From Acidobacteriota bacterium (GTDB lineage: Bacteria; Acidobacteriota; Terriglobia; Bryobacterales; Bryobacteraceae): a stretch of DNA of 37,382 nucleotides. Under the pieces are notes generated by a model that had not been told where the DNA came from, made no database searches, and was given only the letters and a program-made list of their open reading frames with translations. The DNA lies in the NCBI GenBank assembly GCA_021813825.1, contig JAKAJI010000008.1, positions 1 to 37,382 on the forward strand, given 5' to 3'. Made by a program: the position numbers and the translations under genes. This document shows, one piece after another, positions 148 to 35,525 of this stretch. Every line of letters begins with the position of its first letter. The stretch's first letter is position 1.

Positions 148-945
148 ATGCTTTTCTATCCCCGATTGTCGAGCGGTGGCACGAGCCAGTTTCCGATTGC
201 GCGGCAGGAGACGCACAGGACGGTTCAGAGCGCGATGCCGAGCGGCGCGACGGTCCGCTCGTCGGATACGGGTGCGGACTCGGTGCAATGGAAGCTGACT
301 TACTCGCATCTGACGGATGCGGAGTGGGCGGCGATTGAGTCGCTGTACAAGGCGGCGCAAGGAAGGCTCAATGCATTTACATTTCTCGATCCAACAGACA
401 ACCTGCTGGTGTGGAGTTCGGACCTGACGAACCCGGTGTGGACGACGGACCCAATGGTGACGGTGGGAGCCGGGATTGGCGACCCGAACGGGGGGGCGGG
501 CGCGTTCCGGTTGACCAACGGCGGGCAGGCATTGCAAGGCGTGGGGCAGACGCTGCCGGCTCCGGCGGGGTTGATTTATGCCTTCAGTGTGTATGTGTCA
601 AGTACGGCGCCGGCGAGCGTGAGCTTAGTAGCGACGGACGGGACGGCCGTGCTGCACGACACGGTGAACGCGACAGCAGGGTGGACGCGAGTGCAGATGC
701 AGAGCCTGTTGCCGAGCAGCCAGGGGACGATCACGTTCCGGATAGAGCTTGGTCCCGGAGCGCAGGTGAATGTATTCGGGCCGCAGGTGGAGGCGCAGCC
801 GACGGCGAGTTTGTACAAAGCAACCGCGGGACGGGGTGGTGTGTATCCGGAAAGCCGCTTCGCACAAGACGAGATCCAGCGAGTGTCCACGGGCGTGAAT
901 CAGAACGCGGCGGTGATTCAGATCTTCACGACGATTCCGGATTAG
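148..945 (+). CDS. Phage minor-tail-like protein (gpM/DUF2460-like) with lectin-like C-terminal domain
   Basis: This 265-residue protein appears to have two parts. Residues 1-90 contain a segment ending in a Leu-Tyr-Lys-rich helix and an AFTFLDPTDN stretch. This resembles the end of distal-tail and minor-tail proteins of the lambda gpM and DUF2460 type, in which a helix precedes a strand with Phe and Asp/Trp. Residues 91-240 begin NLLVWSSDLTNPVW and are rich in alternating strands, like the carbohydrate-binding jelly-roll modules seen on phage fibres. The gene starts one base after the upstream stop and ends 15 bases before the gpL/gpJ-like gene. In lambda, M precedes L, so the order supports the call. 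No signal peptide is seen. The family assignment is by pattern only. Confidence 0.55.
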   Translation: MLFYPRLSSGGTSQFPIARQETHRTVQSAMPSGATVRSSDTGADSVQWKLTYSHLTDAEWAAIESLYKAAQGRLNAFTFLDPTDNLLVWSSDLTNPVWTTDPMVTVGAGIGDPNGGAGAFRLTNGGQALQGVGQTLPAPAGLIYAFSVYVSSTAPASVSLVATDGTAVLHDTVNATAGWTRVQMQSLLPSSQGTITFRIELGPGAQVNVFGPQVEAQPTASLYKATAGRGGVYPESRFAQDEIQRVSTGVNQNAAVIQIFTTIPD

Positions 946-960
946 AGGCGAAAGACCCAG

Positions 961-3900
961 ATGGCAACAATCGACACCCTGAAGAATCTCACGACACCAG
1001 GCACGCCATTATTCCTGTTTGACATTACCCTTTCAGATGGCCAAACGGAGGGTTATAGCACGCATAGTGTGACTTATAACGGGACGGCTTATACGGCGCG
1101 AGTGATGCAGCATAACCTGTTCGACCTGCGGGCGTCTTCCAACCAGGGAATCGACAGTCTGGCGAACGTGTCGATCACGCTGGGGAATGCGGATTCGATC
1201 TGCTCGGAGATCGAGCGGAACGTAGGGTGGAAAGGCGCGCTGGTTACGATTCAGTTCCTGTTCTTCGACCTGGTGAACGGGGTTGGATTGTCGGAAAGCG
1301 AGGTGGTGTTCCGGGGGGTGGCGAATCCGCCCGAGGAATCGACCGAGTCGAGTTTTCGGGTTAGTTTTGTCAGCCGGTTGAATCTGACGCGGGTGTATCT
1401 GCCGGAAGTGAGGATCCAGCGGCGGTGCCCGTGGCAGTTTCCTTCGACATTGGCACAGCGGCAGGAGGGTTTGAGCGGCGGGACCGAGGGACGGTATGAC
1501 ATGTTCTACCGGTGCGGGTACTCGGCGGACGTGGCGGGTGGCGTGGGGAACCTGAGCAATGGGGTGGCGTATACGTCGTGCGATTACTCGCGGGCTTCGT
1601 GCGAACAGCGGGGGATGTTCTCAGCCGACGCGCAGGGAAACACGACAGCGCGATTTGGCGGAATTGAGTATGTGCCGTCGCTGGTGCAAGTGCGGGGATA
1701 TGGACAGGGAGCGCGAGAGTGGTCGCCAGTCATTGACAACCAGGCGCGTTACAACGATTATGTTCCATTGATTTACGGTACGGGGTGGTTTGCACCTCCG
1801 ATCGTGTTTTCGCGCAACGACGGGAACTTGACGAGGATGCAGTTGCTGCTGGGGATGGGGCAGATCAACGGCGTGCTGAAGGTGATCGTCAACGACATTG
1901 AGATTCCCGCTGGGCAGCAAGGCGCGAACATGACCGCAACGGGTTGGTACAACCTGGTGACGGCCGGAGGGCGCGACGGAGCCTTTGACATGGATTTCAC
2001 CGACGCTCAAGGGAATCCGCTGGGAGACCCGTACGGCAGCATGGCGTATCTGAGCGTGGTGGCGCCGAACCGGATCAGCGACGGGATTACGCTGCCGCAG
2101 GTGCAGGTGCTGGTGCAGGGGATGTTGCTGGACAGGTATACGGCCGCGGGCGCGTATCAGGACACCGTTTTTACGAACAATCCGGCGTGGGTGATTTTGG
2201 ACGTGCTGCAGCGAAGTGGTTGGTCGACGGAGGAAATCGACTTAGTGAGCTTTGCGGCGGCGGCGGCGGTTTGCGACTCGCCGGTTCAGGGGGTGGATTT
2301 GAACGGGAATCCGGTGACTGTGCCGCAGTTTCAGTGCAACCTGATTTTGAATTTCCGGCGGCCCGCCTCGGACGTGGTGCGCGGCATTCGGAACGGGTCG
2401 TCATTGTACTTGACGATGAGCCAGGGTGGGCTTTTGCAATTGAAGGCGGAGGGGCCGATTGCGCAGCAGCAGCCGGCGCAGATCGCGTCGAGCAACAGCG
2501 TCGAGCCGATCAACGGGGGATGGCCGGCGTATGAATTCGGGGACAACTCATTTTCTGGGATTTTGCGGAGGAGTAATGGCGAATCGACGTTGAGGGTGTA
2601 TTCGCGGCCGATAGCGGATTCGCCGAACCAGATGGCGGTGGAGTTTCAGGACGAATTCAACGAATATCAACAGGACAGCATTTCGCTGGTTGACATCGAC
2701 GACGTGCAGTTGAGCGGGCAGCCGGTGACGACATCGCTGACGGCGCTGGGACTACCGAATTTTAACCAAGCCGCGCGGGCGATCACGCTGCAATTGAACA
2801 AGAGCGTGCAGGGAAATACGTACGTGGACTTTGAGACGAGCGTGAAGGCGTTCGGGCTAAATCCGGGGGATTTAATCACGCTGACTTATGCGCGGGAAGG
2901 GTGGACGAGGCAGTTATTCCGCGTGACGCGGATTGCGCCTGGGCCGAACTACCGGACGGCGATGATTACGGCGCAGATTCATGACGACGCGTGGTATGGG
3001 CCGAACGCGCTTCTGGGGAGCGGAGGAATCGGACGGCAGGCGGGGGCGGGGACGGGACTTCCGCGACCGCTGGCCGGGGCGACGACGGACGGAAGCGGGA
3101 AGCCGGAGTTCGCGATCACGGAAACCGACACGGAGAGCGCGGACGGAAGTTACATCGTAAGTCTGGCGGTTGGGTTTACTCCTCCGGCGAGGCCGGCGGC
3201 AAGCGCAGCGAACATTCCACTCGTTGGATTGAATCCTTCGATAGCGCTGAGCGGAGGAACTCTAGCCGGCGGGCAGACGCTCTATTACGCGGTGAGCGCG
3301 GTGGACGCTAACGGGAACGAGACGGCGCTGTCGTTTGTGGTGACAGCGACGATTCCCTCCGGGACGCAGACTAACGCAGTTACTGTGAGCGGGCTGAGTT
3401 TCTCGGCGACGACAGCCAGCTTCAATGTTTACCGGGGCGCGACGCCGCAACAGTTATATCGGATTGCGGCGGCGCAGGCGGTAGCAGTTGAATTTACCGA
3501 TAGCGGCGCGGCCGAGACGCTGGTTCCCCCACCGGACGCCAACTACGACCACGCCAATTTCTACTGGCGGTTTGAGTTACTTCCGCAGACGCCCGTGAAT
3601 ATCGAATCGGCGACGACGGTGGGGAACAGTCAGTTGCAGATGACGGCGAACGAGTTTCAGGGGATGATTGCGCGGATCAGCGCCGGGACAGGCGCCGGGC
3701 AGGAGCGGCAGATTCTGGCGAATACAGCGACGACATTGACCGTGGCGCAGAGTTGGACGGTGACACCGGACGGGACGAGCGAGTTTGTGGTGGTGGAGGC
3801 GGGGTGGCAATTCGGGTCGACGGCGAGCGTGAGTCCGGCGACGTTCACGGTGCCGGACCGGCCTGGAATGACGGTGGAGATTTCCGGGCGGGCGGCGAAC

Positions 3901-4884
3901 GTGCGCAACGAGGAGACGGACCCGGCGCTGTCGCCGATTACGTCCTGGCAGATCGGCGGGGCGACGGTGACGCCGGTGGACGCGAGCGTTCCGCCGGCGC
4001 CGGTGTTCGGGTTGAACGCGCCGGGCGAAGGGTCGGTGCAGGTGCAGGCGATCGGGTTCAACACGCTGACGAACACACGGACGATTACGGCGGGCACGTT
4101 GACACTGGGTTATTGGGACGAGTTGAGCGGACCGTCGACGGTGACTCTGAGCGCGGCGATCGCGGCGACGGATACGACGATTGTGACGGTGGGGCAGACG
4201 GGTGCTCAGCCGGGAGCGCTGTTGCAGGTGGAAGCGGAAGTAATGCTGGTGATCGCGGTGGCGAGCGATGGGGTGACGCTGACGGTTACGCGCGGGGAAT
4301 ACGGAACGACGGCCGCAAGCTACAACGCGGGGGTTACGGTTTGGGCGCTGACGCGGATGAGCTTTGTGCTGCCATTCTTCCCGGACTTTTTCGGGAGTCC
4401 GGAGAGCGGGAGTTACAGTTTTCCGATTCCGTTTGCGGACAAGCGGATTGTTACCGCTGACCTGTTCATGACCAACTCGCGGGGCAGCGGGCCGGCGGCG
4501 CAGGAAGCGTTTACCGGGACGACGGATTACGGACTGCGGACTTTGTCGGGTGGGCAGTTGACGATGCAGGTGGAGGGGCCGCTGGCGATTGAGACGAACG
4601 CGGCGGCGCCGCTGGTGGTAGACACGACGCACGCGGTGCGGGATATCTTTGCGATGGTGAAGCAGGCGCCGGGAGCGCCAGTAGTGGTGCAGGTGACGCA
4701 GAACGGCCAGACGTACGGGCCGCAATTGACGATTGCCGCAGGGCAGACGATGTCGAACGTGGTGGACGGAATGCCGCTGCCGCCGCTCGGGGATAAGGCG
4801 CAGATCGGGTTGAACATCGTGTCGGTAACTCCGGCATCGGATGTCGCGCCGGGGAGCGACCTGACGGTGACGATCCGGCTGTAG
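961..4884 (+). CDS. Tail-tip protein: gpL-like Fe-S domain fused to gpJ-like tail hub
   Basis: This is a 1307-residue tail-tip protein. Residues 1-150 resemble the N-terminal part of gpL/DUF2163-type minor tail proteins. Cysteines C156 (in RRCPW), C185 (in YRCGY), C207 (in SCDYS) and C214 (in SCEQRG) match the four-cysteine pattern of lambda gpL relatives, which bind an iron-sulfur cluster at the tail tip. From about residue 240 the protein looks like gpJ-type hub proteins, including a EFQDEFNEYQQDSISLVD segment near residue 567 that is typical of them. An FN3-like domain follows at about 735-850, then a long beta-rich C-terminus. In lambda, L and J are separate genes with K and I between them; here they are one polypeptide and no K or I is present between them. 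The gene is the middle member of a closely spaced trio. Confidence 0.75.
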   Translation: MATIDTLKNLTTPGTPLFLFDITLSDGQTEGYSTHSVTYNGTAYTARVMQHNLFDLRASSNQGIDSLANVSITLGNADSICSEIERNVGWKGALVTIQFLFFDLVNGVGLSESEVVFRGVANPPEESTESSFRVSFVSRLNLTRVYLPEVRIQRRCPWQFPSTLAQRQEGLSGGTEGRYDMFYRCGYSADVAGGVGNLSNGVAYTSCDYSRASCEQRGMFSADAQGNTTARFGGIEYVPSLVQVRGYGQGAREWSPVIDNQARYNDYVPLIYGTGWFAPPIVFSRNDGNLTRMQLLLGMGQINGVLKVIVNDIEIPAGQQGANMTATGWYNLVTAGGRDGAFDMDFTDAQGNPLGDPYGSMAYLSVVAPNRISDGITLPQVQVLVQGMLLDRYTAAGAYQDTVFTNNPAWVILDVLQRSGWSTEEIDLVSFAAAAAVCDSPVQGVDLNGNPVTVPQFQCNLILNFRRPASDVVRGIRNGSSLYLTMSQGGLLQLKAEGPIAQQQPAQIASSNSVEPINGGWPAYEFGDNSFSGILRRSNGESTLRVYSRPIADSPNQMAVEFQDEFNEYQQDSISLVDIDDVQLSGQPVTTSLTALGLPNFNQAARAITLQLNKSVQGNTYVDFETSVKAFGLNPGDLITLTYAREGWTRQLFRVTRIAPGPNYRTAMITAQIHDDAWYGPNALLGSGGIGRQAGAGTGLPRPLAGATTDGSGKPEFAITETDTESADGSYIVSLAVGFTPPARPAASAANIPLVGLNPSIALSGGTLAGGQTLYYAVSAVDANGNETALSFVVTATIPSGTQTNAVTVSGLSFSATTASFNVYRGATPQQLYRIAAAQAVAVEFTDSGAAETLVPPPDANYDHANFYWRFELLPQTPVNIESATTVGNSQLQMTANEFQGMIARISAGTGAGQERQILANTATTLTVAQSWTVTPDGTSEFVVVEAGWQFGSTASVSPATFTVPDRPGMTVEISGRAANVRNEETDPALSPITSWQIGGATVTPVDASVPPAPVFGLNAPGEGSVQVQAIGFNTLTNTRTITAGTLTLGYWDELSGPSTVTLSAAIAATDTTIVTVGQTGAQPGALLQVEAEVMLVIAVASDGVTLTVTRGEYGTTAASYNAGVTVWALTRMSFVLPFFPDFFGSPESGSYSFPIPFADKRIVTADLFMTNSRGSGPAAQEAFTGTTDYGLRTLSGGQLTMQVEGPLAIETNAAAPLVVDTTHAVRDIFAMVKQAPGAPVVVQVTQNGQTYGPQLTIAAGQTMSNVVDGMPLPPLGDKAQIGLNIVSVTPASDVAPGSDLTVTIRL

Positions 4885-4891
4885 GAGCGCC

Positions 4892-7618
4892 ATGGCGGAC
4901 ACGTTGACGAAGCTACGGCCCGACCGGGACTTGCAGTGTTACTACTTCCAGCCTTCGGCGATCGCCGCGCTGAGCGGGGCGTCGGCGACGGGATTCACGC
5001 TGTCGGGGACGTGGCGGCAGCAGTTCGACTGGGCGGTAGTGGAGTGGAACCGGGATAACACGTTTGAGCATCCGATGCTCCGGAATCTGCCGGACGGGGA
5101 CCTGAGCGGGATCACGCTGAGTTACCAGGAAACGCGGACGAACTGCATTCCGATGGACTCGGATCTGTATCCGACGGTGGACTGGCCCTCGCTGCGCATT
5201 TGGGCCGATCCAGGGACAGGGGAGCAGGTTTATTACGTCAAGCTGATGAATTACGCCAAGCCGGCGGCGGGAAGCTATGTGCCCGCGACGGCAACAATGA
5301 CGCTGGGAGGAACGCCGACGACGGGGGATTACATCGGCGTGTCGTTTTTGAGCGAGCAGTACAACTATCAGCTTTATGGGACCGACACGATCGACAGCGC
5401 GATCACGCAGCTTGCAGCGGCGGTGAATTCGTTCTCGCCGACGATGTCGGCGACGGCTTCGGGGAGTTCGATCACGCTGACGTACCTAGGGACGAAGACG
5501 GGAAGCAGCACGACGGGGGCGAGCGGGAACCGGTTGGGCGTTTACGGATTTGTTTCGGGTGCGGGAACCGAGCAGTGGGTGACGCCTTCGGCGCAGTTCA
5601 GCGGGGGACAATCGCCGACGGCGTGGGGCGTGACGCTACCGTTCGGGACGTTGACCGACGTGAACGGCGTGGCGGTGCCGACGAACGCGGTGCGGAAGAT
5701 GCGCTGGACCTACGCGGCGGACCTGCAGGCGGGAAGCTTTGTCCGAAGCGAGTTTTGGGTCGAGGTGACGCAGTGGAGCGTGACCGGGAGCAATTTGACT
5801 TACTCGGTGTCGGGACCGGGGAGCGTACGGATTGAGGACAACTCCAGCCAGATTGTCTACAGCGGGGCGTGGACGCAGGCGGTGGGGAACTTTTCGGGCT
5901 CTACGATTCACTACACGACGGAGAACGGCGATTCGCTGACGTGTTCGTATACGTTTGGGGCGGCGCACAGCCTATATCTGGGTACGAGGATTACGTACAA
6001 CAGCGGAACGGTTTCGGTTTCGGTGGATGGACAGGCGGCGGTGATGGTGAACCTGCTGTACGCGGGGGAAGACGTGCTGGTGCGGCACCTGCTGGAGGAC
6101 TTGGCGGCTGGCGCGCACACGGTGACCATCACATACACGGGACCGGCCGGAAGTTATTTTTATTTCGACTTTCTGGAAATGGCTATGCCGGCGCAGACGC
6201 TGCCTGTTCCGGCGACCAACGGCAAGGTGACGCTGGCGACGGATTGGGACACGGAACACTCGCAGGTATTGGCGGCGGAGCGGACGGCGTGGATCCTGGA
6301 TTCGCTGGGGTTTGCCGGACGGGCGAATCATTATGCGGGTGCGCTGTGGTTTTACGAGTTGACTTCGCCGGGGAATGTGTATGCTTCGGGGACGGTGACG
6401 TTCGGCGGGACGCCGGTGTTCGGGCAGACGACGACGATCACGCTGGACGGGACGGCAATTTCGCATCTGAACAACATTGGGGATACGGCCGAGACACTGG
6501 CGCTGGCGTTCGAGTTTCTGATCAATTACAACTCGACGGGGGTGTGGGCGCAGGCATCGGGAGCAACGCTGACGATCGTTTCGCGGACGATGGGTTCGGC
6601 GGGGAACGCGATGACGCTTGCGACGAGCGGAGGCGGGACGGGGTTCACGGTGACGGTGTCGGGCGCGACGCTTACCGGAGGCGTGGACGGGACGTGGCTG
6701 ACGGACCTGACAGCAACGCCGCGGATGAACCGGGCGGCGAGAGACTGGCACACGGCGTACTTTACGGCATTGAAGGGCTACGGAATCGATGTGGCGGCGG
6801 CGTTCAGTACGGAGTTAGGGAACGGCGATCCTTCGGTGAGCGCGGGCATCGGGCAGAGATATTTGAGCGGGGATCCGGTGTTAGTGAATACGCCGGCACT
6901 GCAGACGAATTTTTCGCCGCAGAGCCGCGCCTACTGGCAGGAAGTGTATCTTGAGATGGCTGGGTTGCAGGCGTCGGCGGGAGTTACGCCATACTTACAG
7001 TTTGGCGAAGTGCAGTGGTGGTATTTCCCTGAACTGGATGCACAGGGCAACCCGACCGGCATGACTTTTTACGACGCGTACACGACGAGCACGTTTGAGG
7101 CGCAGTACGGGAAGACGATGGCGCAAATTCTGACGAACACGGCCGACCCGTCGGCGACGCCCGACGAGGCAGCGTTTCTTCCAAGCCTGATCGGGGCGCA
7201 CACGGCGGCGATCCGCGCGTATGTGCAAGCGACGTACCCTAGCTGCCGGTTCGAGGTGTTGTATCCGCCGGATGTGAATAACTATGCGTTAACGCAAGTG
7301 ATCAACTATCCGACGGGCGACTGGACTCCGGCAAACCTGACGTGCCTGAAGACGGAGAACTTCGGGTTTACGCTGGGGCGGAACCTGGACCTGGTGCGAG
7401 CGGCGATTGAAGGAGGCTATGCGGCTGCGTTCCCTCCAGCGCAGCGCAGCCACCTGGTGGGGATCAGCGACGCATCGACGCCCTGGTTAAAGGAGAGCGA
7501 GATAGCGTTGGGGGATGCGCTTGAGTCGGTCGTGTTGTTCGCGCTCGACCAGTACTGTTTGATCGGGTATTCGACGCCGCTTGCCGCGCCGCCACGGCGG
7601 TCCTTGCAACTTGGCTAG
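4892..7618 (+). CDS. Large fibre-like tail protein with duplicated beta domain and glycosidase-like C-terminus
   Basis: This 908-residue protein starts 7 bases after the hub gene with a GGAG ribosome site, so it belongs to the tail module. Two copies of a phage-type beta domain are visible, at about residues 130-245 (starting ATMTLGGTPTTGD) and 498-602 (starting GTVTFGGTPVFGQ). Each ends near a Gly-Gly motif. Residues 610-900 alternate hydrophobic strands and helices as in a TIM barrel. Two glutamates at strand ends, E706 (FGEVQWW) and E822 (KTENFGF), could be the acid/base and nucleophile of a clan-A glycosidase. The likely role is receptor binding or polysaccharide cleavage at the tail tip. 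I do not recognise a named family for the whole protein; the glycosidase idea is inference. Confidence 0.55.
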   Translation: MADTLTKLRPDRDLQCYYFQPSAIAALSGASATGFTLSGTWRQQFDWAVVEWNRDNTFEHPMLRNLPDGDLSGITLSYQETRTNCIPMDSDLYPTVDWPSLRIWADPGTGEQVYYVKLMNYAKPAAGSYVPATATMTLGGTPTTGDYIGVSFLSEQYNYQLYGTDTIDSAITQLAAAVNSFSPTMSATASGSSITLTYLGTKTGSSTTGASGNRLGVYGFVSGAGTEQWVTPSAQFSGGQSPTAWGVTLPFGTLTDVNGVAVPTNAVRKMRWTYAADLQAGSFVRSEFWVEVTQWSVTGSNLTYSVSGPGSVRIEDNSSQIVYSGAWTQAVGNFSGSTIHYTTENGDSLTCSYTFGAAHSLYLGTRITYNSGTVSVSVDGQAAVMVNLLYAGEDVLVRHLLEDLAAGAHTVTITYTGPAGSYFYFDFLEMAMPAQTLPVPATNGKVTLATDWDTEHSQVLAAERTAWILDSLGFAGRANHYAGALWFYELTSPGNVYASGTVTFGGTPVFGQTTTITLDGTAISHLNNIGDTAETLALAFEFLINYNSTGVWAQASGATLTIVSRTMGSAGNAMTLATSGGGTGFTVTVSGATLTGGVDGTWLTDLTATPRMNRAARDWHTAYFTALKGYGIDVAAAFSTELGNGDPSVSAGIGQRYLSGDPVLVNTPALQTNFSPQSRAYWQEVYLEMAGLQASAGVTPYLQFGEVQWWYFPELDAQGNPTGMTFYDAYTTSTFEAQYGKTMAQILTNTADPSATPDEAAFLPSLIGAHTAAIRAYVQATYPSCRFEVLYPPDVNNYALTQVINYPTGDWTPANLTCLKTENFGFTLGRNLDLVRAAIEGGYAAAFPPAQRSHLVGISDASTPWLKESEIALGDALESVVLFALDQYCLIGYSTPLAAPPRRSLQLG

Positions 7619-10282: not shown

Positions 10283-11464
10283 GTGGCTGCGGATCTGAGA
10301 GCGATCCAGGAGGCGCTGCGGGAAGAAGGGCTCGACGGTTGGCTGTTCTTCGACCATCATGAGCGCGATCCGCTGGCATACCGCACGCTGAAGTTCCGGC
10401 CGCAGGGGACGATGTCGCGGCGCTGGTATTATTTCCTGCCGGCGCAGGGAGAGCCGGCGGGACTGGTGCACCGGATTGAGCCGCATGTGATCGATGCGCT
10501 GCCGGGGGAGAAGCGGATTTATTCGGGATGGGCGGGGCAGTTTGACGGGTTGCGGGCTCTTGTCGGCGGGGCGCGGCGCGTGGCGATGCAGTATTCACCG
10601 AACTGCGCGGTGCCGTATGTGTCCATGGTGGACGGTGGGACGATCGACCTGGTTCGCGGACTGGGTGTGGAAGTTGCGAGTTCGGCGAACCTGATTCAGT
10701 TGTTCGAGGCGCGATGGAGCGCGGAGCAGTTGGAGATGCATCTCGAGGCCGGGCGGAGAGTGGATGCGGTGCGGGCGGCGGCGTTTGCGCGGGTCGGCGA
10801 GTTGCTAAGGGCAGGCAGCGCGGTGGGCGAGTACGACGTAAAGGTGTTCGTGCGGGAGGGATTTGAGAAGGCGGGACTCGAAACCGACCATGGGCCGATT
10901 GTGGCGGTGAATGCGCACGCTTCGGATCCGCATTACGAGCCGGAGGCGGCGTCGAGCGCGGAGATTCGGAAGGGCGACGCTTTGCTGATCGACCTTTGGG
11001 CGAAGCTGAAGCGGCCCGGCGCGGTGTACTACGACGTGACGTGGACCGGCTACTGCGGCGCGGCGGTTCCTTGGGAGATCGAGAACGTGTTCGCGGTCGT
11101 AGCCGGAGCGAGGGACCGGGCGGTGGAGCGCGTGAAGCAGGCGCGGGAGAGCGGAGCGGAGCTGCGTGGTTTTGAAGTCGACGACGCGGCGCGAGGCTAC
11201 ATCACGGCGCAGGGCTTCGGCGAGTACTTCGTGCACCGAACGGGGCACTCGATCGGAGAGGATGTCCATGGTACGGGCGCGAACATGGACAACCTGGAGA
11301 CGCACGATGAACGGAAGGTGATCGCCGGGACGTGCTTCTCGATCGAGCCGGGCATTTACCTGCCGGAGTTCGGGATCCGGAGCGAAGTGAATGTGTACGT
11401 GGAGGAGAAGGGCGCGCGAGTGACGGGGGAAATCCAAAAGGAGCTGATCAAGCTTTCCGTATGA
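10283..11464 (+). CDS. M24 family metallopeptidase (Xaa-Pro aminopeptidase/dipeptidase type)
   Basis: This 393-residue cytosolic enzyme starts at GTG. It has the two-domain layout of creatinase-fold X-Pro peptidases: an N-terminal domain of about 150 residues and a C-terminal pita-bread domain. All five dinuclear metal ligands can be placed: D237 (LLIDLW), D251 (YYDVTW), H322 (RTGHSIG), E355 (IEPGIY) and E368 (RSEVNVY). The enzyme should release an N-terminal residue before proline or cleave X-Pro dipeptides. It starts one base after the symporter stop, and its own stop overlaps the next start as ATGA, so it is translationally coupled to both neighbours. Creatinase-like or other M24 specificities cannot be excluded. 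Confidence 0.88.
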   Translation: MAADLRAIQEALREEGLDGWLFFDHHERDPLAYRTLKFRPQGTMSRRWYYFLPAQGEPAGLVHRIEPHVIDALPGEKRIYSGWAGQFDGLRALVGGARRVAMQYSPNCAVPYVSMVDGGTIDLVRGLGVEVASSANLIQLFEARWSAEQLEMHLEAGRRVDAVRAAAFARVGELLRAGSAVGEYDVKVFVREGFEKAGLETDHGPIVAVNAHASDPHYEPEAASSAEIRKGDALLIDLWAKLKRPGAVYYDVTWTGYCGAAVPWEIENVFAVVAGARDRAVERVKQARESGAELRGFEVDDAARGYITAQGFGEYFVHRTGHSIGEDVHGTGANMDNLETHDERKVIAGTCFSIEPGIYLPEFGIRSEVNVYVEEKGARVTGEIQKELIKLSV

Positions 11465-13011
11465 GATTCAGGGCAACGATGTGGGCCGCGGCGGCGTGCG
11501 CGGCGGCGATGGGAACGGTGTGGGCGGGGCAGTGGACGACGTTCGGATACGACCCGCAGCGGACCGGATGGGCGAAGACCGAAGAAGCGTTGAGCCCGGC
11601 GAATGTTTCGAAGATGAAGCTGGAGTGGTCGCTGAAGCTGGACAACCAGGCGCTCGAGTACAATGCGCTGACGGCGCCGATTGTGGCCGAGCGGGTGATC
11701 ACGCCGGAGGGGTTCAAGGACATTGTTTATGTCGCCGCGAGTTCGGATCATGTGTTTGCGATCGATGCGGACTCGGGAAAGCTGCTGTGGTCGAAGACGT
11801 TCACGCGGACGGCGGAGCCGAAGCAGAAGCCGCACTGGCTGTGCCCGAACGCGTTGAACGCGACGCCGGTGCTGGATAAGAGGGCGAAGACGATATACGT
11901 GGTATCGAGTGACGGGATGCTGCACTCGCTGAGTCTGGTGAACGGGGAGGACATGAAGCCGCCGGTGGCGCTGACGCCTCCGTTCGCAAAGATGTGGAGC
12001 CTGAACCTTTATGGGGGGATGTTGTACACGGTGACGTCGCAGGGGTGCAACGGGGTGAAGTCGGCGGTTTATGGGATGGACTTGAAGGATCCCGAGCGGC
12101 CGGTGAAGAAGTATCAGGTGAGCACGGCGGGCGGAGGGATCTGGGGGCGCGCGGGAGGGGCGGTCAGCGCGGTGACGGGGAACATTTATGTTGAGACCGG
12201 AGACGGTCCGTGGGATCCGGCGGCGGGGAAACTCGCGAATTCTTTTGTGGCCGTGACGCCGGAGTTGACGCTGGCCGATTACTACACGCCCGTGAATTAT
12301 CAGTGGATCGATAAGAAGGACCTGGACATGGGCGACATCAGCCCGGTGGTGTTTCCGCTTGGGAACAAGGAACTGGTGGCGGGCGGCGGGAAGGAAGGGG
12401 TGCTGTATCTGCTGGATGCGAAGTCGCTGGGAGGCGCGGACCACCGGACCCCGATGTACCGGAGTCCGCGGTTGCTGAACGACCGGGTGGATTTTGCGGG
12501 TCACGGATTCTGGGGCGCGCTGTCGACGTGGGAAGACGCGCAGAAGACGCGGTGGCTGCTGGCTCCGGCGTGGGGACCTCCGGCGGAGAAGGGAATGAAG
12601 TTCCCGGTGAGTTACGGGGCGACGCCGGACGGAAGCGTGATGGCGTTCAAGGTGGTGGAGAAGGACGGGCGGGCGGAGCTCGATGCGGCGTGGATGTCGG
12701 AGAACATGGAGGTGCCCGAACCAGTGGCGATCGCTAACGGCGTTGTGTTTGCGCTTTCGACGGGAGAGAATGTTCAGCAAGTGGACAGCGACGGCAACAT
12801 CCTGAATTCGACGCAGCGCGAGGCGGGGACGAAAGGGCACGCGGTGCTCTATGCGCTGGACGCCGAGACGGGGAAGACGCTGTATTCGAGTGGTGATGCG
12901 ATGCACGGTTTTGCACATTTCAGCGGGCTGGCGGTATCAAATGGAAGGGTGTTTGCGGTAACCCATGACTCGACGGTTTACGCCTTTGGCTTAGGGGAGG
13001 AGAACCCATGA
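11461..13011 (+). CDS. Exported PQQ-like beta-propeller protein
   Basis: This 516-residue protein starts at the ATG in the ATGA overlap with the peptidase gene. A signal peptide ends near VWAGQW, about residue 22, so it should act in the periplasm or outside. Repeats of the PQQ-enzyme or BamB type are visible, such as [46 protein letters not shown] and a last [13 protein letters not shown]. These are blades of an eight-bladed propeller. It may be a dehydrogenase-like domain or only a scaffold; I see no cytochrome domain or signal for a bound metal. Its stop overlaps the peroxiredoxin start (ATGA at 13008-13011), which suggests a joint periplasmic function and equal expression. Confidence 0.82.
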
Positions 13012-13550
13012 AGAGTGCGGCACGATGGATGATGCTGGCGGCGCTGGTGGTGGGCGGCGCGGCGGCTCAGGATGTTCAACCGGGAAAGACGTCGCTGAAG
13101 GTGGGCGACATGGCGCCGGACTTCACGTTGACGGACACGAACATGAAGCCGGTGAAACTGAGCGATTTCCGGGGGAAGAAGAACGTACTGCTGGCCTTCT
13201 TTCCGGCCGCGTTTACGGGTGGTTGAACGATCGAACTTACGGCGATCCAGTCTGGAATCGCGAAATTTAACGCGGCCGATACGCAGGTGCTGGCGGTGAG
13301 CACGGATTTCAACCCGACGCTGGAGCATTGGAAGAAAGAGCTGCATGCGGATTATCCGATGCTGAGCGACCACATGCGAAAGGTGACGGCGATGTACGGG
13401 GTGCTGATTCCGTCGATGGGGATCGCCAACCGGGTATCGTTCCTGATTGATACGGACGGCAGGATCACGGATATCTTTGAAAACAAAGAGGCGTTGGACC
13501 CGAGCGGGGCGTTGACGGCGTGCAGCCGGTTGAAGCATAAAAAGATCTAG
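13008..13550 (+). CDS. Exported selenocysteine-containing peroxiredoxin (TGA at 13224-13226 read as Sec)
   Basis: One 180-residue frame is interrupted only by TGA at codon 73. The frame before it ends PAAFTGG and the frame after continues TIELTAIQ, so the TGA stands exactly where the peroxidatic cysteine of the peroxiredoxin motif PxxxTxxC belongs (P66, T70, U73). The catalytic arginine R142 (NRVSFLID), the VLAVSTDF strand and a possible resolving cysteine C172 lie downstream. A signal peptide (residues 1-20, ending GGAAA) predicts export. A hairpin at 13242-13261 fits a bacterial SECIS element. Selenocysteine peroxiredoxins are an established family; they reduce peroxides using thiol donors. 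The gene overlaps the propeller gene by four bases. The alternative is a nonsense mutation or base error, which the intact downstream sequence makes less likely. Gene callers would report two fragments, 13008-13226 and 13287-13550. Confidence 0.85.
13242..13261 (+). promoter_or_regulatory. Candidate bacterial SECIS hairpin
   Basis: Bases 13242-13246 (GCGAT) pair with 13257-13261 (ATCGC). After a bulged A at 13256, CCA (13247-13249) pairs with TGG (13253-13255), leaving the apical loop GTC at 13250-13252. The loop begins 23 bases after the TGA, within the range known for bacterial SECIS elements, and it offers the unpaired G-U that SelB recognises in E. coli fdhF. The hairpin lies inside the coding frame, as bacterial SECIS elements do. 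Confidence 0.65.
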
Positions 13551-31144: not shown

Positions 31145-32425
31145 ATGACGGATCGAAACATTTGTCCACTTGTGTGCCTGGCGCTTTGGCTGGGGATCCC
31201 CGCCGCATTCGCCGCACCGGCCGATGCCGAAAAACTGATCGCCCTGGCCCGTGAGCATCCGGATTCGGCGGAGTTGGCCTCGGCCATCCGCGACGCCTTT
31301 CCGGCGGCGGAGCTTGCCAAGGGGACAGCGGTGGCCGAGCAGGGGCCGGATTTCTTCTTTGCTGTGGAATCGCCCGCCGAACCGCAGATCGTGGTCGACG
31401 AAGACGCTGCGGCGCCTACCGCCCCGCTCGATTCCGGCCGGCTGCACTACTACATTGCCTCGCTCACCACTTCCCGCACGCATAACTTTCATTACGTGAT
31501 CGACGGTGCATCCTTCGGCGGGAAGTTCAACGTGATTGCCTATGGGCCGGAGTCCTATCTTCGCCCCGGCGTAAAGCCCGGCCACCTGACTGAGAAGCGC
31601 GTACACACGAGCACGATCTATCCGGGCATGCAGAGCAATTACTGGATCTACACCCCCGCCGGATACGACCCGAGGACGCCGGCGGCGGTGATGATATGGC
31701 AGGACGGTGAGGCGCAGGTGGAGCGGGACGGTCCGTCGCGCTCACTGAATGTCATCGACAACCTGACGGCGGAAAAGAAAATTCCGGTCATCGTTCACAT
31801 CTTCATTTCGCCGGGGACAATGAACGGCAAGCGCATGCGTTCGGTCGAGTACGACACGGTTTCGGATCGGTATGTGCGGTTCCTGCTGGAAGAAATTCTT
31901 CCGTTGGCCGCGCGCGAGTACAACCTCCGCACGGACGCCTACAGCCGGGCGATCGCCGGGGAAAGCTCGGGCGGCATCTGCGCGTTCAACGCCGCCTGGT
32001 TCCGGCCCGACGCCTTCAGCCGGGTGATTTCGCGGGTGGGCAGCTTCACCAGTATTCAGTGGGAGAAGGAAGCGCCGGAGGGCGGCAACGACTATCCGTT
32101 CAAGGTCCGGCGCGAGGCCAAGCGGAACATCCGTGTCTGGCTACAGGACGGGTTCAACGACCTCGAAAACCAGTTCGGAAGCTGGCCGCTGCAGAACATC
32201 GAGATGGCGAATTCGTTGAAGTACCGCGGGTATGATTTTCACTTGAGCTTTTCAAACAACGCGCATGGCCGTACGCCGGGTTTTGCCGAAGACGCCGAAG
32301 AGCTGACCTGGCTTTGGCGTGACTACGATGCGTCGGAGACGAGCGAGGAGTTTCAGATGGACCCGGCGGAGAAGAACCTGCCGTATTACCGTGTCCGTTT
32401 GGCCGAGAGGAGCCCGGAAAAATGA
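31145..32425 (+). CDS. Exported esterase-D-like alpha/beta hydrolase
   Basis: This 426-residue protein has a signal peptide ending near AAFAAPAD (about residue 22). From about residue 170 it matches the putative esterase family (enterochelin-esterase type) with YWIYTPAGYDP, then the nucleophile S274 in GESSGG and the histidine H374 in NAHGRTPG. An N-terminal region of about 140 residues resembles the beta-sandwich domain that precedes such hydrolases. The substrate is unknown; ester bonds in plant or microbial polysaccharides are plausible for this family. The start of the next gene overlaps its stop as ATGA at 32422-32425. Confidence 0.82.
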   Translation: MTDRNICPLVCLALWLGIPAAFAAPADAEKLIALAREHPDSAELASAIRDAFPAAELAKGTAVAEQGPDFFFAVESPAEPQIVVDEDAAAPTAPLDSGRLHYYIASLTTSRTHNFHYVIDGASFGGKFNVIAYGPESYLRPGVKPGHLTEKRVHTSTIYPGMQSNYWIYTPAGYDPRTPAAVMIWQDGEAQVERDGPSRSLNVIDNLTAEKKIPVIVHIFISPGTMNGKRMRSVEYDTVSDRYVRFLLEEILPLAAREYNLRTDAYSRAIAGESSGGICAFNAAWFRPDAFSRVISRVGSFTSIQWEKEAPEGGNDYPFKVRREAKRNIRVWLQDGFNDLENQFGSWPLQNIEMANSLKYRGYDFHLSFSNNAHGRTPGFAEDAEELTWLWRDYDASETSEEFQMDPAEKNLPYYRVRLAERSPEK

Positions 32426-32910
32426 GTACCACCCGACGCGATGCGCTGAAAGTGCTGGCGGCGACGACCTCGTTGCCTTTCGCGGCGCAGGGGGCGACGG
32501 AGCCGAAGAACTTCACGGCCGAGGAATTCGCCGTACTTTCCCGCCTGTCCGACCTGATCCTTCCGAGGACGGACACGCCCGGCGCAGTCGACGCTGGAGT
32601 TCCGGCGATTCTCGATGACGCCGCCGGCCGTTCCCCCGCCCTGCGGAACACACTGCGCGAGGGCATCGCATCCTTGGGCGGAGCGAAGTTCCTTACGGAA
32701 TCGGAAGCTAGCCAGAACCAGGCCCTTCGTCGAATCAGTGGTCTGGATGGCGCCGCTCCGACACCGTTCTTCACGGCGCTCAAGAATGAGGTCATCGACG
32801 CCTACTATTCGACCCGCGAGGGGCTCGTGGCCGAACTCGGCTATCATGGCAACGTCCCACTGGCCGAGTTTCCCGGATGTACCCATCCCGAGCACCAGCG
32901 CCTGGACTAG
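32422..32910 (+). CDS. Tat-exported gluconate 2-dehydrogenase subunit 3-like protein
   Basis: This 162-residue protein starts inside the esterase stop (ATGA). It begins with a twin-arginine signal, [20 protein letters not shown]. The rest, from [19 protein letters not shown] onward, matches the gluconate-2-dehydrogenase subunit 3 (gamma) family, small proteins that accompany GMC flavin dehydrogenases. These subunits carry the export signal for their partner, which has none. The GMC gene follows after five bases, so the pair should form an exported complex. Confidence 0.88.
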
Positions 32911-32915
32911 CCCGT

Positions 32916-34562
32916 ATGCAAATTCGAAGTTCTCCAGAGATCGCGGACGTGCTCATTGTCGGCAGTGGGGCTGCCGGTGGGATGGCCGCCTGGAACCTGA
33001 CGCGGCAGGGTGTGAACGTCACGCTGCTCGATGCCGGCGAGCGATTCAACCGCGCCCGGTTCTGGACTCACGTCCGGCCGTGGGAACGGCGCGCTCGGGA
33101 AGCCCGCGGTCTTCATCCGCCCGAATTCTATCTTCAGGCTTCCGAGCAGCCGGTCCTGACGCCGCCCGGCCGTCCGTTCGACCTTACCCGGGTTTGGGGG
33201 CGGGGCGGCAAGACGAATGTTTGGGGACGTGTCGCACTGCGTTACTCGGACTTGAATTTCCATGAGCCGGCACTCGATGGCTGGGAGATTCCCTGGCCGG
33301 TGACCTATGCCGAGATGGCTCCCTACTACGATCGGGTAGAGCAGTTGATCGGCGTATGCGGCGGGGATGACGACGAGCCATTCCTGCCAGGCAGCCGGTA
33401 CCATCTGCCTCCACCGAATCCACGCTGCGGCGAGTATCTCATACGGCGCGCGGCCCATCATGCAGGCGTGAAGATCGTCGCCGGCCGCCGCGCGGTGGTC
33501 ACGCGCGAGCACAATGGCCACGGTCCGTGCCACTATTGCGGCGCCTGCGGACGCGGGTGCGACATCGCGGCGTTTTTCAACTCGAGCGACTACCTGCTTG
33601 AACCGGCGCTCGCCACGGGACGTCTGACCATCGTCGACAACGCGGTGGCGGCGGAGATCCTCACCGGCGACGATGGCCTCGCCAGCGGCGTGCGGTATTT
33701 TGGACGCCACAGCCGGGACGAGCACACCCTCCGCGCGCGGCGGGTTGTCGTGGCGGCATCCTGCGTTGACTCGACCCGGTTGCTTCTCAACTCCCGCGGC
33801 GCGCGCCATCCCAACGGCATTGCCAACTCGAACGATGTGATCGGACGCTATCTTTGCGAGCAGATCCGCTTTCATATGTACGGTTTTGTGCCGGAACTGA
33901 TGGGCGGGCCGGTTCACAACGACGATGGCATTTCCGGCGCTCATATTTATATGCCCCGCTTTGTTCCGCCGGGCGGAAAGGGCCGCGATTATCTGCGCGG
34001 GTACGGAATGCAGTTCTGGGGCTTTGGCGCGGGGGCGGGCGCTTCGTTCGGCAAGCAACTTCCCGGCTTCGGCGCAGGCTTGAAGCGTGGCATCAAGCAG
34101 CGTTATCCCGCCCTGGTTGCTTTGCACCCGTACGGCGAAGTGCTGCCGCGCGCGGATAACCGCATCACGCTCGACCCGGTGCGCAAGGATGCTTACGGCA
34201 TCCCCTTGATGCGCATCGATTATTCAATCGGGGAGAACGAGCGCAGGATGGCCGAAGCGATGTATACGACCTGCGAGGAAATCCTCCATGCGGCCAAGGC
34301 CGAGGTGTTGCCTTATCAACGCGGCTGGCTCGATGTGAACGGCGCGGCGATTCACGAACATGGCACCTGCCGCATGGGCTCCGACCCGAAGCGCAGTGCC
34401 CTGAACAAGTACTGCCAGGCGCACGAAGTGAAGAACCTGTTTGTTGTCGATGGGGCGTCGTTTCCGACCTCGACGGAGAAAAACCCGACGCTCACGATCC
34501 TGGCTAATGCCTGGCGCGCCACCGACTACATGGCCGCCGAGATGGCTGCCGGCCGGGTGTGA
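32916..34562 (+). CDS. GMC family FAD-dependent dehydrogenase with ferredoxin-like Cys cluster
   Basis: This 548-residue flavoprotein starts at ATG 32916; an upstream extension of 13 residues overlaps the subunit 3 gene and is unlikely. It has the FAD-binding VGSGAAGG at about 13-20 and the C-terminal GMC motif [11 protein letters not shown], with a later [11 protein letters not shown] helix. At C205, C208, C211 and C215 ([11 protein letters not shown]) it carries a ferredoxin-style CxxCxxCxxxC set. Related FAD dehydrogenases (glucose, fructose) bind an iron-sulfur cluster near this point that passes electrons from FAD. There is no signal peptide, so export should depend on the Tat signal of subunit 3. 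The sugar or alcohol substrate cannot be read from the sequence. Confidence 0.88.
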
Positions 34563-34580
34563 CCGCTACACTGAAAAGGT

Positions 34581-35063
34581 ATGGCCAAACAATACGCGGC
34601 CCCGCCGCCGATGGCGATTGACGCCTCGAAGAAGTATACCGCCACGTTTGAAACGTCCCGCGGAAACATCGTTTGCGAACTATTCGCCAAGGACGCGCCG
34701 AAAACGGTGAATAACTTTGTTTTTCTTGCGCGCGAAGGCTTCTATGATGGGACGACGTTTCACCGCGTGATCGCGAACTTCATGATTCAGGGCGGCGACC
34801 CCACCGGTACCGGCCGCGGAGGTCCGGGCTACCGGTTTGAAGACGAGCTCGCCGGCCGGGAAAACCGTCACCAGGTGGGTTCGCTTTCGATGGCGAACGC
34901 CGGCCCGAACACGAACGGCAGTCAGTTCTTCATCACGCACGTTGTGACCGAATGGCTTGACCCGAAACACACGGTATTCGGCCAGGTGACCGCCGGCCAG
35001 GACGTGGTGAACGCGGTGCAGCAGGGTGACACCCTCAAGACAGTGACGATCCAGGAATTGTAG
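34581..35063 (+). CDS. Cyclophilin-type peptidyl-prolyl cis-trans isomerase
   Basis: This 160-residue protein covers the small bacterial cyclophilin fold. [14 protein letters not shown] contains the catalytic arginine, and [16 protein letters not shown] the substrate groove. There is no signal peptide, so it is cytosolic. It starts 18 bases after the GMC stop on the same strand and may be read through from that unit. The gene has no specific link to the dehydrogenase that I can see. It is followed by a 138-base gap with a structured element. Confidence 0.93.
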
Positions 35064-35080
35064 GATAGAAGTTTACCCAC

Positions 35081-35113
35081 GGAACAGAGCCCCGACCGCG
35101 AGGGAGGGGTTCC
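35081..35113. repeat. GNRA-capped hairpin, possible dispersed repeat unit
   Basis: CCCC (35090-35093) pairs with GGGG (35106-35109). A symmetric GA/GA internal loop and a CC/GG pair follow, closed by the tetraloop GCGA (35098-35101). The outer GGAA (35081-35084) pairs with TTCC (35110-35113) past a five-base bulge. Tandem GA pairs and a GNRA loop make it a stable RNA fold. No second copy is seen in this window. I recall similar short hairpins scattered in Solibacter-type genomes, but this is memory, not proof. Confidence 0.4.
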
Positions 35114-35201
35114 GTCCCAGCGATCCGGTGCGACCGAAGCGACCACTTTGGATGCGCCAACATCATTGAAGAAGTTCACGAATGGGAGGAAGCATCGAAT
35201 C

Positions 35202-35525
35202 ATGCGCAAGTTCATTGTGCCCGTCGCTCTGTCGGCGCTCGTCGCGGGAGGCCTGAGCCTCGCTGCTCCGAAAGGCGACGCCACGAAAGGCAAGGAAACC
35301 TTCGAACAGTGTGGAGTTTGCCATAACGTAGACAACGACGAGAAGAAGGTTGGCCCTTCGCTGAAGGGATTGTTCAAGCACGCCAAGCTCAAGAACGGAA
35401 AGCCGGTCACGGACGCGAACGTACTCGAGCTGATTAATGCCGGCGGGAATGGTATGCCGTCTTACAAAGACATTCTTTCTGACGAAGAGAAAGCCAACGT
35501 CATTGCGTACCTGAAGACGATCTGA
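35202..35525 (+). CDS. Small class I c-type cytochrome
   Basis: This 107-residue protein starts at the ATG at 35202, after GGGAGGA; the frame extends upstream but that part has no signal-like sequence. A signal peptide (residues 1-21, SALVAGGLSLAA) is followed by one heme motif, C37-G-V-C40-H41, and the likely axial methionine M85 in GNGMPSY. It is a monoheme periplasmic electron carrier. It lies downstream of the GMC dehydrogenase and could accept its electrons; this is inference from position, since the cyclophilin gene and a hairpin lie between. Confidence 0.92.
   Translation: MRKFIVPVALSALVAGGLSLAAPKGDATKGKETFEQCGVCHNVDNDEKKVGPSLKGLFKHAKLKNGKPVTDANVLELINAGGNGMPSYKDILSDEEKANVIAYLKTI

Follow-up and report, generated by a model that had tools for sequence, protein, structure and literature searches.

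A peroxiredoxin of Acidobacteriota predicted to be exported and to carry selenocysteine at its peroxidatic position

We analyzed a 37,382-nucleotide stretch of DNA from an Acidobacteriota bacterium (contig JAKAJI010000008.1 of assembly GCA_021813825.1), referred to here as the window. One of its genes very probably encodes an exported peroxiredoxin with selenocysteine (Sec) at the peroxidatic position, both the incorporation of selenium and the export being predicted from sequence. The features of the gene and its surroundings are listed in Table 1. The reading frame contains a single internal stop, a TGA, and when this codon is read as Sec the translated protein, which we call Sec-Prx, has the peroxidatic motif PAAFTGG-U73-T and also includes the segment ANRVSFLID. 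No further stop interrupts the frame, and Pro66, Thr70, Arg142 and Cys172 lie where an earlier note on this DNA had placed them.

Table 1. Features of the Sec-peroxiredoxin gene and its upstream neighbour in the window
Feature	Position	Strand	Basis
PQQ/BamB-type beta-propeller gene, upstream neighbour	11332..13011	+	Pfam PQQ_2, E 6.5e-13
Ribosome-binding-site-like stretch GGGGAGGAG	12994..13002	+	read from sequence
Sec-peroxiredoxin gene	13008..13550	+	translation with UGA read as Sec, 180 aa
Start codon ATG	13008-13010	+	read from sequence
Signal-peptide-like N-terminus, no lipobox Cys	13008..13070	+	sequence; simple rule
In-frame TGA, predicted Sec73, peroxidatic residue	13224..13226	+	TGA in 85, TGC/TGT in 15 of 100 relatives
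SECIS-like hairpin GCGAUCCA-GUC-UGGAAUCGC	13242..13261	+	family-level conservation with compensatory changes
Arg142, catalytic arginine of peroxiredoxins	13431..13433	+	invariant, 100/100 relatives
Cys172, proposed resolving cysteine, C-terminal helix	13521..13523	+	Cys in 98/100; aligned to PRDX5 Cys151
Terminal stop TAG	13548-13550	+	translation

The 399 genomes of the class were searched for relatives of Sec-Prx, which were found in 221 of them at E <= 1e-25, and nearly all of these relatives, among the matches listed, carry one internal TGA. We then extracted and aligned 100 acidobacterial relatives. The earlier note had proposed that homologues be aligned to see whether TGA alternates with Cys codons, and this is what the alignment revealed, since codon 73 is TGA in 85 sequences, TGC in 14 and TGT in one. 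Residue 70 is Thr or Ser in every relative, while Pro66 is present in 64. The Cys forms (for example L046, L054, L056 and L117) resemble the Sec forms in length, signal peptide, Arg142 and Cys172, but have Cys at position 73. Extra TAG or TAA stops were noted in some homologues; in those that were read, these were normal terminal stops. A tree built without the Sec column requires at least eight changes between Sec and Cys, three of which are forced by strongly supported branches, and the number of changes leaves their direction undecided. With midpoint rooting, each side of the root includes Sec forms, and the Cys forms fall within one part of the tree.

Tandem pairs of Sec-peroxiredoxin genes were also present in one family (f5; L088, L090, L091, L094, L106, L109 and L113). 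In four of these pairs the second copy has no signal peptide, and two of those four second copies also lack Cys172. This suggests that the second copies may represent a cytoplasmic 1-Sec paralogue.

Fold and the second conserved cysteine

Sec-Prx matches the Pfam AhpC-TSA family (PF00578) with an E value of 6.5e-33 over residues 32-155, and its AlphaFold2 model has a pLDDT of 90.7. The closest fold identified by Foldseek is that of AhpE of Mycobacterium tuberculosis (Rv2238c; TM 0.90, rmsd 1.5-1.7, 39% identity). The AhpE chains are likewise the closest solved relatives in single-sequence comparison (91 bits), and in profile comparison AhpE shares the top position with chain 2ywn, a peroxiredoxin-like protein. 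The in-frame TGA falls exactly on the peroxidatic cysteine of AhpE, bearing out the earlier claim that it replaces the catalytic Cys. AhpE and Sec-Prx share the PxxFTGxC motif as well as the fold, but AhpE is described as a 1-Cys enzyme in its PDB titles, whereas Sec-Prx combines a predicted Sec as catalytic residue with a second Cys near the C-terminus.

This second cysteine, Cys172, occupies the only conserved Cys/Sec column besides column 73 in the 100 aligned relatives, and its conservation extends to Sec and Cys forms alike. The AhpE-subfamily trait of a single Cys with no candidate resolving Cys is therefore not seen in this family, and the Prx5-type trait of a second Cys in the C-terminal helix is, Cys172 corresponding to residue 147 of the AlphaFold2 model, within the helix spanning residues 141-153. 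A profile alignment to human PRDX5, an atypical 2-Cys peroxiredoxin, placed Sec73 on the peroxidatic Cys and Cys172 on the resolving Cys151. The PRDX5 query sequence used for this alignment agreed with PDB entries 1h4o/1hd2 at 161/161 residues. PRDX5 matches Sec-Prx at the position of Cys151 but differs from it in other respects: the two proteins are 28% identical, Sec-Prx is nearer overall to the AhpE/BCP-type chains, and Sec replaces Cys. Because a conserved Cys172 in the last helix aligns with Cys151 of PRDX5, we propose that, if the protein is a selenoenzyme, the selenenic acid formed on Sec73 (Sec73-SeOH) would probably be resolved by Cys172.

It is also possible, though we consider it rather unlikely, that Sec is inserted and the protein acts as a 1-Sec counterpart of the 1-Cys enzyme AhpE. 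A small thiol or a periplasmic redoxin would then reduce the selenenic acid directly, and Cys172 would have some other use, such as a structural role or a dimer contact. The best folds and closest solved relatives, which belong to a 1-Cys enzyme, are in keeping with this alternative, as are two divergent second copies that keep Sec and have no Cys172. It would leave unaccounted for the retention of Cys172 in 98 of 100 relatives as their sole other conserved Cys, as well as its alignment with a known resolving residue, and these observations argue for resolution by Cys172.

Predicted export and genomic neighbourhood

The earlier note had proposed a signal peptide for this protein, and a simple rule that looks for charge at the start, a hydrophobic core and small residues at the cleavage site supports that proposal. 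The window protein and 90 of the 100 homologues pass the rule, and export is predicted on this basis; the clear exceptions are the four second copies in tandem pairs. We know of no exported form of AhpE. The hydrophobic N-terminus could instead reflect a mis-assigned start on a selenoprotein that stays in the cytoplasm, as the second tandem copies beginning with no signal peptide might suggest, but this is improbable given the ribosome-binding-like stretch ending 5 nt ahead of the ATG and the prevalence of signal-peptide-like N-termini among the homologues.

The beta-propeller gene upstream ends in a TGA that overlaps the ATG of the Sec-Prx gene by 4 nt, as ATGA, and the peroxiredoxin had previously been described as coupled to this PQQ-like propeller. 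When the neighbours of the different loci were compared, the two genes adjoined each other only in the window and in the near-identical records L032 and L033. The arrangement is thus local and the coupling was rejected: the propeller is a neighbour of Sec-Prx, and its membership in the same system is not supported beyond near-identical relatives. Clustering of the neighbouring ORFs, performed to identify a conserved operon partner or reductant, yielded no family that recurred at over 8 loci out of about 90. Many of the top clusters look like ORFs in non-coding frames.

Two other groups of genes were observed in the window. Three phage-tail-like genes occupy 148-7618 (+), several kb upstream of the rplA-rplJ-rplL-rpoB-rpoC cluster. 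Their products are a DUF2460-like protein, a tail protein of the Phage-tail_3 / phrog_1101 type and a TIM-barrel protein of non-contractile tail sheaths, and the group may be what is left of a prophage, a gene-transfer agent or a tailocin module. Genes for a gluconate 2-dehydrogenase subunit 3-like protein, a GMC oxidoreductase, a cyclophilin and a cytochrome c follow one another at 32422-35522 (+), and this row is a possible periplasmic sugar-oxidising unit.

Reading of the UGA codon

A SECIS-like hairpin follows the UGA in the window, its stem beginning 16 nt past the codon and its GUC loop at 13250-13252. An Rfam scan of the window gave no match, and by single-sequence folding the window hairpin alone is unexceptional (z of -0.1 and -0.6). 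Family-level covariation was therefore used, and the case for the hairpin rests on the family. The consensus hairpin found after the UGA of Sec genes is of the type GGCG-UACCA-GGC-UGGUA-U-CGCC. With a divergent branch of seven set aside, 68 of 78 Sec genes form this hairpin, compared with 6.3 +/- 2.3 expected from synonymous codon shuffles (n=500, in which the maximum was 14 genes), while it is missing from 14 of the 15 Cys genes. The pair formed by positions 20 and 28 is C-G in 61 Sec genes and U-A in 17, with no mismatches. This pair joins the third base of a codon, usually Tyr, to the second base of a Gly or Asp codon, such that for the most part Tyr TAC occurs with Gly GGT or GGC, and Tyr TAT with Asp GAT. 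A silent site is in this way tied to an amino-acid change, as expected of an RNA structure under selection. The same hairpin was present beside the Sec form in most loci read from other acidobacterial classes.

The seven sequences of the divergent Sec branch (L118, L124, L125, L126, L129, L130 and L131), which come mostly from f10 and in one case from an f6 genome, do not have the consensus hairpin. They contain another potential hairpin with a larger loop 3' of the UGA, and the SECIS of this branch may have been remodelled. One Cys form (L041:1501-2019) retains a SECIS-like hairpin (GGAUACCAGGCUGGUAUUC) and looks like a recent change from Sec to Cys.

A search for the sel genes, suggested by the earlier note, was successful for all but SelB. 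The source genome (G000) is a 5.1 Mb draft in 563 contigs, 94.6% complete. It contains a tRNA-Sec with anticodon UCA that scores over the cut-off (76.8 bits), a SelA apparently split over two contigs, and a SelD at L028:1411-2430 (-). The SelD gene has its own in-frame TGA at the catalytic position (AAG-U-AAKLSP), and SelD is thus itself a predicted selenoprotein. SelB gave no match over the cut-off in this draft assembly. Two SelB-like fragments were not counted: one (L019) looks, on inspection by eye, like the beginning of a CysN-type protein, and the other (L021) closely follows tRNA genes, a place where elongation-factor genes often sit. Since full-length SelB is present in a genome of the same genus (G326), in the sister genomes G399 and G400, which carry near-identical copies of Sec-Prx, and in 279 of the 399 genomes of the class, a gap in the draft assembly is the simplest reading. 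The Sec-bearing genomes of the sampled set with no SelB match (G000, G234, G381, G132 and G015) are drafts of about 80 to 610 contigs. G063, a genome in 4 contigs that also has no SelB match, has a Cys form, as have G261 and G387.

Selection on the gene was assessed 5' and 3' of the TGA in 14 closely related pairs. In both parts dN was much lower than dS; examples 3' of the TGA are a dN of 0.004 with a dS of 0.193, and a dN of 0.008 with a dS of 0.376. This result argues against a pseudogene. UGA is a stop by default, and the failure to find SelB in the source draft might be taken to favour a pseudogene, or termination that leaves a product of 72 residues. We nevertheless consider a true stop very improbable, because purifying selection continues past the UGA, the UGA occupies this exact codon phylum-wide and alternates only with Cys codons, the hairpin tracks it, and the remaining Sec machinery is present, with SelB in related genomes. 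The observations that the earlier note had named as counting against a selenoprotein were not encountered, in that sel genes are present, Cys codons alternate with TGA and the downstream codons show no decay. A sequencing or assembly error converting TGC or TGT to TGA can be set aside even in so fragmented an assembly, since the same TGA is found in copies 96-98% identical from two other genomes (L032 and L033), as well as in most of the aligned relatives.

Proposed mechanism and relation to known selenoproteins

In the mechanism that we propose, codon 73 would be read by SelB and Sec-tRNA(Sec) under the direction of the hairpin that lies 16-35 nt 3' of it, and the product would reach the periplasm through the Sec pathway, as its signal peptide suggests. 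Sec73 would attack H2O2 or an organic hydroperoxide within the PxxxTxxU/Arg142 site. Cys172, the putative resolving residue in the C-terminal helix, would then resolve the resulting selenenic acid as a selenenylsulfide, in a Prx5-like geometry, and regeneration may depend on a putative periplasmic thioredoxin-like or DsbD-CcdA-type reductant. A broader and more tentative suggestion is that a phylum-wide, ancestrally Sec-dependent periplasmic peroxiredoxin, with a Prx5-like Sec-Cys resolving pair on an AhpE scaffold, might be what chiefly protects Acidobacteriota against peroxide outside the cytoplasm, might help explain why the Sec machinery has been kept in these soil bacteria, and might repeatedly have become a Cys enzyme, losing the SECIS hairpin in the process.

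Peroxiredoxins with the TxxU motif are an established selenoprotein family according to the text passages of three papers, which report 43 'Prx, TxxU' genes in the Sargasso Sea (PMC1088965) and 12 Sec genes of TxxU peroxiredoxin (PMC1794560), and which describe PxxxTxxU and cite PrxU of E. acidaminophilum (PMC13188914). The passages of PMC1794560 assign three selenoprotein families and four selenoproteins to Acidobacteria and do not name them, so an acidobacterial Sec-Prx may already be included in its supplement. PrxU of Eubacterium acidaminophilum (NCBIfam NF040737) resembles the window protein in having a peroxiredoxin fold and a peroxidatic Sec in PxxxTxxU; unlike PrxU, the window protein is predicted to be exported, is built on an AhpE-like scaffold and has the conserved C-terminal Cys172. 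It scores 77.5 bits against NF040737, below the cut-off of 270, and no NCBIfam equivalog captures this family of Acidobacteriota Sec-Prx. No paper on an exported acidobacterial Sec-Prx was found in the part of the literature covered, which comprised main texts. Sec peroxiredoxins as such were already known, and the present family is an AhpE-like variant of them, predicted to be exported and to use two residues, that occurs across Acidobacteriota.

An annotation that stops at the UGA would split this enzyme in two. The family represents a predicted selenoenzyme maintained throughout a dominant soil phylum. The many switches between Sec and Cys, with the SECIS kept or lost, offer a natural experiment for asking what makes bacteria retain or abandon Sec. 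If the exported Sec-Cys mechanism is true, Sec, a residue usually associated with anaerobes, would help soil bacteria to counter peroxide outside their cytoplasm.
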